From Planctomycetaceae bacterium (lineage in GTDB: Bacteria > Planctomycetota > UBA8742 > UBA2392 > JABWBM01): 37,246 nucleotides of DNA. Below the pieces are notes generated by a model, which did no database searches, was not told the DNA's origin, and saw only the letters and a list, made by a program, of their open reading frames with translations. Position numbers and translations under genes: made by a program. The first letter of the stretch is position 1, and each line of letters starts with the position of its first letter. Of this stretch, positions 3,948 to 24,900 are shown piece after piece. The stretch spans positions 1 to 37,246 of the forward strand of contig JABWBM010000008.1 of assembly GCA_013360495.1 (NCBI GenBank). The letters are read 5' to 3'.

Positions 3948-4268
3948 ATGGCGGGCATGGGCAATCTGAGTGGCCTGATGCAGCAGGCGCAAAAGATGCA
4001 GCGCGACCTGCAGCGTCTTCAAGCCGAGCTCAAGGAGCGCATGGTGGAAGGCTCGGCCGCCGACGGCGCCATCAAAGTGATCGCGTCGGGCGACCAGCGC
4101 GTCATGTCCGTCCGCCTCGATTCGTCCGTTGTCGATCCTGACGATACTGAAACGCTTGAGGACCTTTTGATAATCGCTGTGAACAGCGCCCTCGACAAAG
4201 CGCGCCAGCTTCAAAAAGATGAAACGGAAAAAGTCACAGGCGGATTGAACATCCCGGGAATGTTTTGA
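3948..4268 (+). CDS. ybaB: YbaB/EbfC family nucleoid-associated protein
   Basis: This 106-residue protein shows the full YbaB pattern: GNLSGLMQQAQKMQRDLQRLQAEL, a central beta section (GAIKVIASGDQRVMSVRLD), LEDLLIIAVNSALDKARQ, and the terminal GGLNIPGMF. Family members form dimers that bind DNA and help organise the nucleoid. In many bacteria ybaB sits between dnaX and recR; neither is present here, so it stands alone between a divergent secreted-protein gene and a Crp/Fnr regulator. The start could also be the ATG at 3957 (MGNLSGL); 3948 is kept because an AGGG lies ten bases upstream. Confidence 0.95.
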   Translation: MAGMGNLSGLMQQAQKMQRDLQRLQAELKERMVEGSAADGAIKVIASGDQRVMSVRLDSSVVDPDDTETLEDLLIIAVNSALDKARQLQKDETEKVTGGLNIPGMF

Positions 4269-19903: not shown

Positions 19904-21415
19904 TCAAGCCCGCACAGAATATGAATCGAACACATACCCTCTTTTTTGCGCGCGGCGAAAGAATCGCCGCGCTTTCTGGAGCAACGCAGTGGAATATGCC
20001 GAGCGCGATAGTTTCTCCGCGATCGCGACAACATTGCGATAGTGGGTAGCCCGAACGAGCAAGGGCGGTGATTCTTCCGGATCCATTGCGCCAAAACATT
20101 CGTCCGACGCTTTCAAATGATCGGTCGCGCGCCGTTCATCTCCCGCGATCCGCGCGAGCTGCGTCGCGGTGACCTCCATAATGAAAGTATTGATCGATGC
20201 GCGTTTCCCTGTGCCGGGATTGTCCGGAATCGCTTTGAAGGACTCGATGAAAGGATCAATGATGTTTTTGCTTGGTTCGAAAAGCGCCTGATAGAGATAT
20301 TTCGCCCGGGCGTAGTTCTGAGTTTCTGGCCCGATCACGGCCTGCTTGCCGAGGACATACTGGTCGCATGCCCTTTTCACCTGTTCGGGCCGTTCCGTCC
20401 AGCAGGCGAACTGCACGATGGTCGGCGCAACGCGTCCCCCCGTTCGAGCGCGCTCCAAGATCTCATCGAAGTTTTGCAATCCGAGATAGAGCTGAGCGCG
20501 CAAGGGAATACCGCGGTATTGATCCTGATAGTGCTGCGTCATGCCGGAGAACGCCTGACCGATGCGGGCGGCGCCGCGATGAAGGCTGCCGCTTTCGATA
20601 TCGAGCCATCCGGTAAGCATGGAAAGCAGCCTGCGCACCTGCCATTCCTTTCCGCGCCTGCCGGTGAGCGCAAGCATGGCGCGGCATACAGCCCGGCTTT
20701 CTCCCATAAGCCCGTTCTTGAAAAGCACATGGGCGAAATTGCAGGCGTCGAGACAGTCCGCCTCCGTGACGCGGGTTCCTTTGCGCAACGCGCGCGTGAA
20801 CGACTCGCGTTGCAGGTCCATGGCGCGCTCGAACCGCAGCTTTTTGAACTCATAGGCCGCCGACACGGCGACGAGACGCGAGTCCAGCTCATCGTCGTCG
20901 CACAGCCTTGACACCTGATCGAGCGCGGTTTTGAGAAAGTCCGCGCGTTTGAGTTCGGAGGCGTTCACTGCGGCGTCAAATTCCACCAAGAGTTCCCGGT
21001 AGGTTGCGGTCACCCTCTCATTGAGTTGCTTGCGAACGGTCTCGTACGCGCCGAGCGCCGTGTTGAGCTCGTTGACCATTTTCGCGTGGGCCTTACCGGT
21101 CAGCGCGCCAAGGCGCATCTTCGAGATGTTGGTCATCGCCTGCACCAGCTCGACGATGTTGGACGCGGTTTCCCCGGCGCCGGCAGCGATGTCGGAGAGG
21201 AAGGGGGCGCCCTCGCCCGTCAGCAGCCATGCCGGGTTGACGCCGGCGTTCTTCACCAGCGCAGCGCCGAACTCGATGGGCACGCGGGTACCGCGCAGAT
21301 AGCGGCTGACGTTGTTGCGGGTGGTTCCGACCTTGCGGGCGATTTCGGCCTGGTTGATGTGGTCACAAAGCTGGTTGAGGCGTTGACGAATCCCATCTGA
21401 AGCGAAAGCGTCCAT
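19904..21415 (-). CDS. XRE-family regulator with long helical C-terminal domain
   Basis: The 503-residue protein has an N-terminal helix-turn-helix at about 19-44 (INQAEIARKVGTTRNNVSRYLRGTRVP), followed by GVNPAWLLTGEGAPFL as in Cro/CI-type repressors. The remaining 400 residues are mostly helical, with repeated patterns that could be TPR-like (for example 200-420), probably for ligand or protein binding. The start is the ATG at 21415, with GAGGAGAG four bases upstream; an in-frame extension to 21475 is not needed. An inverted repeat at 21469-21491 in its upstream region may be its own operator. It is divergent from the small secreted-protein gene at 21615. Confidence 0.85.
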   Translation of the reverse strand: MDAFASDGIRQRLNQLCDHINQAEIARKVGTTRNNVSRYLRGTRVPIEFGAALVKNAGVNPAWLLTGEGAPFLSDIAAGAGETASNIVELVQAMTNISKMRLGALTGKAHAKMVNELNTALGAYETVRKQLNERVTATYRELLVEFDAAVNASELKRADFLKTALDQVSRLCDDDELDSRLVAVSAAYEFKKLRFERAMDLQRESFTRALRKGTRVTEADCLDACNFAHVLFKNGLMGESRAVCRAMLALTGRRGKEWQVRRLLSMLTGWLDIESGSLHRGAARIGQAFSGMTQHYQDQYRGIPLRAQLYLGLQNFDEILERARTGGRVAPTIVQFACWTERPEQVKRACDQYVLGKQAVIGPETQNYARAKYLYQALFEPSKNIIDPFIESFKAIPDNPGTGKRASINTFIMEVTATQLARIAGDERRATDHLKASDECFGAMDPEESPPLLVRATHYRNVVAIAEKLSRSAYSTALLQKARRFFRRAQKRGYVFDSYSVRA

Positions 21416-21468: not shown

Positions 21469-21491
21469 GATACAAACAGGCGGCTTGTACC
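21469..21491. promoter_or_regulatory. Candidate operator between XRE regulator and secreted-protein gene
   Basis: GATACAA at 21469-21475 and TTGTACC at 21485-21491 are inverted half-sites with one mismatch, separated by nine bases. The site lies 54 bases upstream of the regulator start and on the far side of the divergent gene. Related strings (CTGTAAGTACTGTACC) lie near 21531-21546. Regulator binding here is inference. Confidence 0.35.
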
Positions 21492-21614
21492 TATTAAGGA
21501 ACCATTTCCCACGCCGTCACAACATTCAATCTGTAAGTACTGTACCATATTTGCAAGTCAGGGCGAATGGAGCGTTTCCATAAGCGACCGAGATAAGGCG
21601 ATAAGGAGTTATGT

Positions 21615-22067
21615 ATGAACACGATGTCAAAAATGATGGTTGGGACAACGGTTGTCGTCTGCGCACTATTTACCTCGCTTTGCGATAATGTTGTGGGTGC
21701 TGTGGCGATTGGAGGGGGAAGTGGTGAACGCGCCGCTGAAGGCCTTCCGGCCGGGCCAACCAAAACTTATACCGGAACCATACGAGCCCTTGGGTCTGGG
21801 ACTGCAATAGATGTAACAATTATTCCTGGGCGTGGGTCAATCGAGATTAAGAGAGGGGGAGCTTACGGCCCGTCGCTCGGAAAACAATCCGGGACTTGGA
21901 AACTGGGAAATGAAGGGAAGTGGAACTTTCAAGGTGGTTATGGCATCAATGCTTGGAACGTGAATTGTCCTGGTTCTGGCCATGCCAACTTGGACCTGCT
22001 CGGCGCAGACGGCGAGCCGGGGTCCGATGGGGAACCGGATACCACCATGCAAGTCAACGTCAATTGA
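21615..22067 (+). CDS. Small secreted protein, unknown function
   Basis: The 150-residue protein starts at ATG 21615 behind AAGGAG six bases away. A signal peptide covers about residues 1-29 (hydrophobic VGTTVVVCALFTSL, probable cleavage after VVGA). The mature part is Gly-rich and looks beta-stranded (TYTGTIRALGSG, DVTIIPGRGSIEIKRGG, GTWKLGNEGKWNFQGGYG), with an acidic end (GEPGSDGEPDTTMQ). I recognise no family. Base composition is less GC-rich than in surrounding genes, and it is preceded by a divergent XRE regulator, so it could be recently acquired. The double-glycine peptide gene follows 244 bases later. Confidence 0.75.
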   Translation: MNTMSKMMVGTTVVVCALFTSLCDNVVGAVAIGGGSGERAAEGLPAGPTKTYTGTIRALGSGTAIDVTIIPGRGSIEIKRGGAYGPSLGKQSGTWKLGNEGKWNFQGGYGINAWNVNCPGSGHANLDLLGADGEPGSDGEPDTTMQVNVN

Positions 22068-22311
22068 TGATTGGCGGGTTATTCGTGATTCGCAGAAAAC
22101 CTCACGCTGTTCATTGGGAGCTAGTTCCATATTGGGTTCAATAAACCGTCGCGTCCCGCAATTGGATCACTTTGTGTAAGCAACATAGCACTCATTCGGC
22201 TTCGCCGCGTATATTTCCAAATGTTGGTGACGCGGTGGTCGCGCCCAACAAGAAGGGCTCGTTGTTCCACGGTGGAGCGACGAGAAGAAGATCAAGAAGG
22301 GATTTCGAATC

Positions 22312-22446
22312 ATGAACAAGTTGAGCGAGAAGAAATTGTCATTGGTTAAAGGCGGATACGTCCTGATCGGTGGGACAATTGTTTACGGCGGCGGTGGTAC
22401 CACAACGACCCGTCCTGGGTTTAATCGTTGCCAAGCTCCTTGCTAG
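22312..22446 (+). CDS. Peptide precursor with double-glycine leader (candidate bacteriocin/RiPP)
   Basis: This 44-residue gene begins MNKLSEKKLSLVKGG. That matches the double-glycine leader pattern (LSxxxLxxVxGG) that C39-peptidase ABC transporters cleave after the second Gly. The predicted core is 29 residues, starts YVLIGGTIVYGGGG, has a Thr run (TTTT), and ends NRCQAPC, with two Cys that could form a disulfide or thioether bridge. AGGGA lies nine bases upstream of the ATG, and a strong terminator follows 24 bases after the stop, so it is a complete small transcription unit. No transporter, immunity or modification gene is recognisable next to it. Function is inferred from the leader only. 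Confidence 0.65.
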   Translation: MNKLSEKKLSLVKGGYVLIGGTIVYGGGGTTTTRPGFNRCQAPC

Positions 22447-22470
22447 ACATCGCTGGGGCCGAGTGATCCT

Positions 22471-22503
22471 ACGGGCGCTCTTCGGGGCGCCCGTCTTCTT
22501 TTA
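22471..22503 (+). terminator. Rho-independent terminator of the peptide gene
   Basis: ACGGGCGC (22471-22478) and GCGCCCGT (22487-22494) form an 8-bp stem with an eight-base loop, followed by CTTCTTTT. It sits 24 bases after the stop of the double-glycine peptide gene. Confidence 0.9.
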
Positions 22504-22600
22504 GATGCGCTTCAACCCAATGTACCCATATTGGAACAAAAATAGCAGCCGAAAAGCGCATAAAACGCACCCGTCCTGTACCATTTCTGTCGTCGGCAAA

Positions 22601-22638
22601 AGGACACAGAGGCACAGAAACCACAGAGACGGGAGAGG
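22601..22638. repeat. Short CACAGA-type repeat cluster
   Basis: Three related units (ACACAGAGG, CACAGAAAC and CACAGAGAC) follow one another directly upstream of the 752-residue protein gene, and the end of the cluster provides its GGGAGAGG ribosome binding site. Such CACAGAG strings are common dispersed intergenic repeats. I found no inverted partner nearby. Confidence 0.4.
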
Positions 22639-22641
22639 CTT

Positions 22642-24900
22642 ATGACCATGCGACTGACGAGGAGCCTGAAAAAGCTCAGTGTCATTCTTTATGTGGCGTG
22701 CGCCGCTTTTGCATCGGCGCTCTTCGCGCAGGCCGCGCCGGTCATTGCCACAGACTACAGTATCGTCCATCCATTGCCAGGGCGACTGCCTACCGCCAAG
22801 GAAAATAGTGTCTACACCCCCTACGATGGCGCGACGCCGGAGACACGCTTTGAAGCCCGCGGGGGCGCCCCGCTTTTGGCAAGCTCGGGGGTTCCGGGCG
22901 TCATTCCGCCGACATACCGCTATCCCGCCAATTGGGCGGTCGTCGCAGGCGCTTTGCCGGACGGTCTTCGCCTTGAGATCGAGTCCTGGATCGGCTACGA
23001 CCCTGTAACCGGCTCAATCGTTGGGCTCGTCATTTCAACCGACCCGGTAACGGGAGCGCGTATCCCGGCTGCCACGACACCGGGCGTCATCGCATTGCCG
23101 GAATTCGCCATTATCGAGGGTACTCCCATCCCTGGGGCGGCAGGTGTCTACACCTTTACCGTTGAAGCGTTCCTTCCGTTCGGCGCTCCCTATGCCGGAG
23201 ACGCGCCGATGCCAGCTCAGGCCGAATACACTATCGAAGTCGAACCCGAATTCGATCCACCGGTGATCGTGACGGCTGCGCTTGCCGACGCTCAGGACGC
23301 CGAGGCGTATGCGCCCTTTACGTTGGAGGTTCATGACGGCCAGCTTCCCCTCAATAACTGGCGCGCCGATGGGCTCCCGCCCGGTATGAGCATGTCCGCC
23401 GATGGCGTCATCTCTGGCATACCTGAGGTCGGAAGTTCCCTCCGCTCCCCCTGGATGGTGACCATTTCCGTCGACGATTCGAACACCAGCGGCGCGCGCA
23501 CCGCGACCACCACCCTACCGCTCGTCGTATCCCCAACCTTCCTGCGAATTGAAGCCGAAACTTTGACCGCTGGTTACGAAGGTCTTCCCTATGCCCACCG
23601 CTTCGAAGCGCGCGGCGGCTACGAGCCATATACCTATACAGCAGTCTCCGGTTTGCCAAGCGGGTTATCAATTGACGCGAACACTGGCGTTCTTTCGGGC
23701 GTCCTTGGCGCGGATACCGCGGGGCGAAGTGGAACACAGCACTACCGTGTGGTGGTAGAGGTGGCGGATAGCCATCCGGCATTCCCACAATCCATACGCG
23801 AAACCTTCGCGCTCGTCGTGTCGAGAGAGCACGGGGGAACTTTCCGGATGGCTACCGCCACACTGCCGCTCGCCACTGATGGCGAAGCGTATGCCGCGCA
23901 GCTCGTGGCGCTCGGCGGGAGCCAGCGGTATTCGTGGGCGGTTACCGGCGATCTTCCAGCCGGTTTGAGCATGGATCGTTCCGGACGTATCTTTGGAACC
24001 GTCGATGCCGGCGCCTCGGCGCAGTCTCCTTACGTTGCAAGTTTTACGGTCACCGATCTTGAGTCGGGCCAGAGGGTCAGCGTTCGTCTCCCGTTGAACG
24101 TGCTGATGGAAGGCGATATCGCGGCCGAACTGCGCGCGACGGGCGAGACGCCAACACAGATGGAAGAAAGCGCCGAGTATCGTATCCCGTTGGCAGCAAA
24201 AGGCGGCATCGCGCCGTATCACTGGCGCGGCATCAGTGTGCCGGCGGGCCTGAATGTCATCGCCGAAAATGGGGAATGGTTGTTGATGGGAACGCTGGCC
24301 CCGACACCTGCGCCGTCGGTCACGGTTCAACTCGAAGTTTCGGATAGTGCAAGCCCCGTTGCAAGCGCCCGTCAAAGCTATACGTTGAGCATCGCTTCGG
24401 CGGAAGGCTCGCAACCTGTGATCCTTACGACCAGTCTGCCGGCCGCCGTCGTGGGCGAAAGCTACGGCCCGGTAAGCATTGACATCGCTAACAGCACCGG
24501 AACGATCGAACTCACCGCAACGGGCCTGCCCGAAGGTTTGTCCCTTGGCCACAACGCGGCGCTAACACACTGGTATCTGGCGGGGCAGGTTGAGCATGGT
24601 GTCGATGCAAGTATCGCCGGAACCCGTTATCCGATTCGAATCACCTTGGTCGATAGCAACGCTGCAACCACCGAAAGGTCACTGACGCTGGTGGTGTTCA
24701 GCGATCCGTCAGCTGCATCAAGTTCGCTTCCCAACACCGTCCCAATCGCCAGCCTGCTTGCTGGAACTCCGGCGGGTGGCTGCTCGCTTCTGCGCGCGAA
24801 CGACCAAGACCAGAAGAGCGGATTCACGCTGTGGTGGTTGCTGGTTGCCGCCGCTGCCGCGAGCGGCGGTCTGCAGCTACCAAAGAACAAGCGCAAATGA
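22642..24900 (+). CDS. Secreted multi-domain protein with putative-Ig repeats and GG-C C-terminal sorting signal
   Basis: The 752-residue protein has a signal peptide (about 1-32, cleavage near AQA). A series of domains then carries the putative-Ig (He_PIG, cadherin-like) motif: GLPPGMSMSADGVISGIP (244-261), GLPSGLSIDANTGVLSGV (337-354), DLPAGLSMDRSGRIFGTV (437-454), VPAGLNV with GEWLLMGTL (533-552) and GLPEGLSL with WYLAGQV (628-650). The C-terminus has GGC (712-714), a polar spacer, a hydrophobic segment at about 728-741, and a basic end KNKRK. This three-part tail resembles the GG-C CTERM sorting signals such as MYXO-, JDVT- and Synerg-CTERM, so the protein is probably processed and surface-anchored. 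The start is supported by GGAG six bases upstream. Confidence 0.85.
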   Translation: MTMRLTRSLKKLSVILYVACAAFASALFAQAAPVIATDYSIVHPLPGRLPTAKENSVYTPYDGATPETRFEARGGAPLLASSGVPGVIPPTYRYPANWAVVAGALPDGLRLEIESWIGYDPVTGSIVGLVISTDPVTGARIPAATTPGVIALPEFAIIEGTPIPGAAGVYTFTVEAFLPFGAPYAGDAPMPAQAEYTIEVEPEFDPPVIVTAALADAQDAEAYAPFTLEVHDGQLPLNNWRADGLPPGMSMSADGVISGIPEVGSSLRSPWMVTISVDDSNTSGARTATTTLPLVVSPTFLRIEAETLTAGYEGLPYAHRFEARGGYEPYTYTAVSGLPSGLSIDANTGVLSGVLGADTAGRSGTQHYRVVVEVADSHPAFPQSIRETFALVVSREHGGTFRMATATLPLATDGEAYAAQLVALGGSQRYSWAVTGDLPAGLSMDRSGRIFGTVDAGASAQSPYVASFTVTDLESGQRVSVRLPLNVLMEGDIAAELRATGETPTQMEESAEYRIPLAAKGGIAPYHWRGISVPAGLNVIAENGEWLLMGTLAPTPAPSVTVQLEVSDSASPVASARQSYTLSIASAEGSQPVILTTSLPAAVVGESYGPVSIDIANSTGTIELTATGLPEGLSLGHNAALTHWYLAGQVEHGVDASIAGTRYPIRITLVDSNAATTERSLTLVVFSDPSAASSSLPNTVPIASLLAGTPAGGCSLLRANDQDQKSGFTLWWLLVAAAAASGGLQLPKNKRK

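Follow-up and report, generated by a model that had tools for sequence, protein, structure and literature searches.

The standard route for peptides with double-glycine leaders is cleavage at the GG motif and export by a C39-ABC transporter. The published consensus for the leader is M(R/K)ELX3E(I/L)X2(I/V)XG(G/A) (quoted in PMC3140520). In Synechococcus elongatus, the EbfG1-4/PteB system comprises small secreted GG-motif biofilm peptides that need a C39 exporter; these peptides act at the level of the community, and no role as antibiotics has been shown for them (PMC4997328). The locus described here resembles the C39 PCAT systems (PCAT1, ComA, LagD, CvaB) in that the spacing of its leader fits the published consensus and in that genes for a C39-ABC exporter and an HlyD-type adaptor are present in the genome. 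However, it differs from them in that 33 precursors are scattered, none was found beside the exporter, and most are located in surface-protein cassettes.

The gene was found in a 37,246-nucleotide stretch of DNA, the whole of which is called the window, and its translation is a peptide of 44 amino acids, MNKLSEKKLSLVKGGYVLIGGTIVYGGGGTTTTRPGFNRCQAPC (Table 1). Short precursors exported by C39 PCATs carry hydrophobic residues at -12, -7 and -4 and GG (or GA) at -2/-1. The leader, of the form M-x-K-L-x4-L-x2-V-x-GG, agrees with this, and the same spacing was observed in 33 paralogs. The first-pass annotation, which was made from the letters of the window, described an open reading frame with a ribosome binding site and a hairpin, located in a stretch of lower GC content next to a divergent XRE gene and a small secreted-looking ORF, and each of these was found where it had been placed. 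The GC content of the stretch from 21476 to 22641 was 51.6% compared with 59.7% for the whole window. The hairpin and the T-rich tail are present, and the region folded alone was unexceptional when compared with shuffled sequences (z = -1.3). The case for the gene consequently rests on comparison. A scan for sigma-70-type promoters found none and an Rfam search of the window gave no match. Three elements had been missing from the annotation: the peptide family, the exporter and a He_PIG surface-protein gene that starts 195 nt downstream of the peptide gene.

Table 1. Features of the peptide locus, in positions of the window
Feature	Position	Strand	Basis or remark
Divergent XRE-type regulator: N-terminal HTH and long all-helical TPR-like region	19904..21415	-	ATG at 21415 preceded by GAGGAG; longer alternative start TTG at 21475
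150-aa secreted-looking protein	21615..22067	+	Cassette membership uncertain
Ribosome binding site AAGGGA	22297..22302	+	9 nt upstream of ATG
Double-glycine-leader peptide gene, 44 codons and stop	22312..22446	+	ORF read; family of 33; pS > pN in related pairs
15-residue leader MNKLSEKKLSLVKGG, predicted C39 cleavage after GG	22312..22356	+	Leader length same in 33/33 peptides
29-residue core YVLIGGTIVYGGGGTTTTRPGFNRCQAPC, C-terminal predicted CxxxC disulfide loop	22357..22443	+	0-or-2 Cys rule of the family
Intrinsic-terminator-like hairpin and T-rich tail	22471..22503	+	10-bp stem and 4-nt loop at 22471-22494, then CTTCTTTTAG; similar hairpins enriched after family members
Large secreted surface protein, 752 residues, He_PIG (Ig-like) domains; C-terminal GGCS, TM and basic tail	22642..24900	+	PF05345, E 1e-36

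The genome (G000) is a fragmented MAG of 256 contigs that is 92% complete, and it was searched both by pattern and by stretches. The first leader pattern gave 6 matches, 4 of which, the window peptide included, were leader peptides, and many more peptides then came from scanning the neighborhoods of the XRE paralogs. A broad leader pattern, ATGMANRNNVTNWNNNNNNNNNNNHTNNNNNNNRTNNNNGGNGG, had 25 matches in the genome as compared with 1 for the reversed control. The window peptide itself was missed by the broad pattern because TTG codes Leu4, so the 25 matches are independent of the query. With close variants, the family comprises at least 33 peptides scattered over the genome. M1, G14 and G15 were invariant in all 33, and the hydrophobic positions of the leader were L/V/I/M4, L/M9 (one A) and V/I12. 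The leader was 15 residues long in every case, partly because the final pattern sought that length; a looser regular expression with variable spacing found no convincing leader of any other length. A purine-rich, RBS-like match was located within 18 nt of the ATG in 33/33 peptides, and a hairpin of -18 kcal/mol or lower, preceding a T-rich tail and no more than 110 nt past the stop, followed 20 of the 33 as opposed to 3 of 150 random stretches. The 15-residue bacteriocin leader model TIGR01847 matched 18/33 peptides at E <= 1 (best 8e-4), and the window peptide, with 13.8 bits, fell below the cut-off of 15.7.

The cores were 11 to 55 residues long, most of them 11 to 31, and varied in sequence. 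Two cysteines were present in 21 of the peptides and none in the other 12, but never one or three, a rule that did not occur in any of 20,000 shuffles (binomial log10 P -9.8). A terminal cysteine was found in 10 cores, including that of the window peptide. A recurrent motif, W-x-[AST]-T-[KRN] with a pair of cysteines after it, linked the window core (TTTTRPGFNRCQAPC) with those on contigs C170 and C175 in an alignment read by eye, and the end of the window core resembled WSATKVPNRDCISPVGAC and WSATKAPTRPCIGPNGLPC of these paralogs. The cysteine rule suggests that a disulfide loop is formed outside the cytoplasm. In the close pairs pS exceeded pN, with values of 0.50 and 0.13 for the C145 pair and 0.54 and 0.17 for the C170/C175 pair, which indicates that the reading frame is under protein-level constraint. 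Within the core as well pN was lower than pS, so that there was no diversifying selection. An untranslated chance ORF would fit with a window hairpin that is unremarkable by itself, but the 33-member family, the RBS-like matches, the synonymous bias and the cysteine rule reduce this explanation to a negligible one. The small gene is real and belongs to a set of at least 33 related genes. Good support for the proposal that it encodes a double-glycine-leader peptide and forms a transcription unit of its own is given by the family and by purifying selection, and also by the C39-ABC exporter and HlyD-type genes found in the genome.

Four matches to the C39 domain were found in the genome. Two of them resembled the halves of one gene at a contig break, C129:2-220 (-) and C32:2-2224 (+), and PF03412 was found on both halves. 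The C32 part could be aligned to chain residues 87-725 of PCAT1 (4ry2, 6v9z), and to ComA as well. The expected catalytic triad was present in C129/C32, with the cysteine in QSDCG, the histidine in HHFIVV and the aspartate in IADP, and the C39-ABC gene was followed by an HlyD-type gene. We infer that C129 and C32 are adjacent and carry a single exporter gene. The absence of a C39 transporter had been named as a result that would speak against the peptide; the transporter is present, split over two contigs. The two remaining matches, a membrane protein that carries a C39 domain (C170) and a C39 domain with TPR-like repeats (C222), were set aside as exporters since their ORFs lacked the ABC part. 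The exporter adjoins none of the peptides found. On the 3' side of the exporter and HlyD-type genes (L027:3940-5211) there is a thioredoxin/TlpA-like sequence, apparently frame-shifted near 4206-4222, that might have a role in disulfide formation or might be unrelated.

The predicted use of one exporter for many scattered precursors is comparable to the cyanobacterial multi-precursor systems (PMC3140520) and, together with cores rich in Thr, Ser, Cys and Gly, would be in keeping with modified RiPPs of the lanthipeptide, azoline or radical-SAM type, the enzymes for which would be encoded elsewhere in the genome. However, neither LanC (PF05147) nor YcaO (PF02624) had a match in the genome (about 92% complete) in a search for these two families. 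No modification enzyme recurred beside the peptides in the neighborhood maps, and the score of the window peptide against TIGR04149 (radical SAM RiPP) was 12.3 bits, far below the cut-off of 25. Such modification is thus very unlikely, and the suggestion of a RiPP precursor in the first-pass annotation has so far found no support.

A He_PIG or vWA-like gene was located within 4 kb of 25 of the 33 peptides, and the 8 peptides without one were in some cases on short contigs. The linkage was counted in loci that had been chosen by regulator or peptide, so this rate is biased, but the agreement in strand is not: the nearest He_PIG or vWA-like gene was on the strand of the peptide in 30/32 cases. 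The genes of a cassette would presumably be co-expressed. Most He_PIG proteins of the cassettes (window, L109, L114, L116, L127, L128, L133, L135, L136 and others) carry at the C-terminus a [LVI]xGAAAAGCS-like motif, followed by a TM helix and then a basic tail. In this three-part arrangement, with an invariant Cys in the motif, they are like the MYXO-CTERM proteins of the myxosortase system (PMC11980579), but the motif here is GAAAAGCS-like and no NCBIfam CTERM model was matched in the proteins scanned. The C-terminal element is perhaps an undescribed sorting tag of the MYXO-CTERM type.

A second secreted family, of about 300 residues and with a DxSxS-like motif, was also observed beside the peptides (L046:5833-6741, L114:2786-3700, L125, L128, L133, L165 and others). 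The loci fetched contained 18 ORFs that matched, including two fragments on C159. The name vWA for this protein is tentative, as it is based on the sequence DMSNS (DxSxS-like) and a weak match to TIGR03788, and a Pfam scan of two members of the family gave no match. The 150-residue protein of the window had no match in Pfam or NCBIfam, and a paralog of it was absent from the other cassettes. A typical cassette comprises the peptide and a large Ig-like surface protein, often the secreted protein of about 300 residues, and frequently a divergent HTH-TPR regulator.

Several observations could be taken to mean that the peptides are narrow-spectrum bacteriocins, class II or microcin-like, whose cores kill close competitors and vary as the result of an arms race: 1) the leader model matched, TIGR01847, is a bacteriocin model, and 2) the cores are short, variable, glycine-rich and predicted to be disulfide-looped. 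However, most cores are no longer than 31 residues, the lower pN than pS in the cores of the close pairs is not what an arms race would leave, the linkage to surface proteins is recurrent, and neither a small membrane gene nor an immunity gene was seen to recur beside the peptides in neighborhood maps that listed ORFs of about 110 residues or more. Killing of competitors is therefore considered rather unlikely. The linkage to anchored Ig-like proteins, the lack of LanC and YcaO and the lack of a recurring immunity gene among those listed favor a surface or community role over an antimicrobial one.

The divergent regulator belongs to a large family. The window XRE protein had 39 matches in the genome, 35 of which were open over the full length of about 500 residues. 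Its close relatives (L079-L100) were nearly all in Planctomycetota, so the genome itself is probably planctomycetal. The Pfam model HTH_3 matched the window regulator with an E value of 2e-4, just under the cut-off; no Pfam TPR model matched the protein of 503 residues, and its C-terminal region was without a Pfam model. The structure predicted with AlphaFold2 (23 sequences) showed an HTH and, after it, a solenoid made up entirely of helices, with a mean pLDDT of 85. Its best fold match in the PDB was domain III of MalT (E 6e-5); no other fell below 1e-3, and the match to the quorum sensor NprR was weak (E 0.07, TM 0.57 by target length). The model makes it plausible that the regulator senses a ligand, which does not imply that the ligand is the peptide.

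Peptides and regulators are linked in the genome. An XRE regulator gene was within 4 kb of 15 of the 25 unbiased leader matches, in regions that make up 8.5% of the genome (P 1e-10). The distance between peptide and regulator was 180-840 nt in six cassettes and greater in the others. This arrangement raises the possibility that the peptides are pheromones read by the adjoining HTH-TPR regulators, an RRNPP-like system in a diderm in which each cassette would sense its own peptide and control its surface protein. The combination of an HTH with helical repeats, the MalT and the weak NprR fold matches, and the presence of a peptide within 4 kb of 15/35 full-length regulators are consistent with such a scheme, as is the correlation between regulator and core distances when all cassettes are included (Mantel r 0.50, p 2e-4). 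However, the C175 cassette is a near-duplicate of the C170 cassette and carries this correlation. Co-evolution of regulator and peptide was not supported, since r fell to 0.10 (p 0.17) without the C175 cassette and to 0.02 (p 0.44) when each regulator was represented by a single peptide. The correlation between surface protein and core was weaker but survived (r 0.29, p 0.0065). Moreover, 20/35 regulators lack a peptide within 4 kb, planctomycetes that are free of the peptides have the same regulators, and re-import of a looped peptide would require passage across two membranes.

The RRNPP systems themselves (Rgg, PlcR, NprR, Rap; PMC10075063) are alike in having an HTH and helical-repeat regulator near a small propeptide, the export of which is predicted here. 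They differ in that the leader here is of the GG type, not Sec or SHP, that the host is a diderm, that no co-variation of regulator and peptide was found, and that regulators also occur without peptides. An RRNPP propeptide is exported by Sec or PptAB, while the GG leader, as read from its sequence, lacks a hydrophobic signal core; an RRNPP receptor has TPRs and about 250-500 residues, and the window regulator has 503 residues and MalT- and NprR-like folds with no Pfam TPR match. Pheromone sensing by the regulators is accordingly judged unlikely.

The leader pattern had 0-2 matches in each of 391 other genomes of the phylum as compared with 25 here, and none in any of the 16 that belong to the same order. 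One or two matches per genome were found at G237:C140:13713, G237:C196:37502 and G158:C14:51811 (for example MKTISNEDMSKVEGG and MQELNVNEMQNVDGG), which might be outliers belonging to this type of peptide. A BLAST-like peptide search of 60 relatives, none of the same genus or family, gave matches at the level of chance, the best with an E value of 0.036. In the other hosts of the regulator, the same peptides were absent from the regulator loci and from 12 genomes. In other Planctomycetota, this type of regulator is usually beside a large secreted protein and without such peptides. The pair of regulator and surface protein thus seems to be the older or more general element, to which the peptide looks like an addition in this lineage.

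The reading that we prefer, a surface or community role, can be summarized in the following way. The single C39-peptidase ABC exporter (C129/C32), with its HlyD-type adaptor, probably recognizes the 15-residue leader, and would cut the precursor after Gly-Gly and export the core. Outside the cell the two cysteines would close a small disulfide loop. The peptides would most likely act there, together with the surface proteins of their cassettes, in surface, matrix or adhesion behavior or in self-recognition, a role suggested by analogy with EbfG1-4. That they are disulfide-looped peptides exported by one C39 exporter, that they belong to surface-protein cassettes and have an extracellular role, and that they are less likely to be classical bacteriocins, is proposed tentatively, with a likelihood that we place a little short of even. 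If it is confirmed, the role of double-glycine peptides would be wider than an antimicrobial one and the peptides would be candidates for signaling or surface interaction. The system connects the short peptides with large anchored surface proteins and with a multi-copy regulator family that is almost confined to Planctomycetota.

A more far-reaching version is a system of many channels, with dozens of cassettes that each have their own HTH-TPR sensor, looped peptide and Ig-like protein, in which kin or density would be recognized by the combination of peptides and matched by the surface display. This version is improbable at present; if true, cells of what are probably Planctomycetota would recognize each other in a new way. 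We know of no described peptide-based communication in this phylum.

Among the systems described, the cyanobacterial NHLP/N11P bacteriocin precursors (PMC3140520) are similar in that many GG precursors are accompanied by few C39 transporters. However, those precursors are clustered with the transporters and often with modification enzymes, while here the leaders have only 15 residues and LanC and YcaO were not found. The closest experimental precedent is EbfG1-4, as small GG-motif peptides would be the common element of both systems, a likeness drawn without comparison of the core sequences. EbfG1-4 are encoded in one operon of four genes, in contrast to the 33 scattered genes found here.
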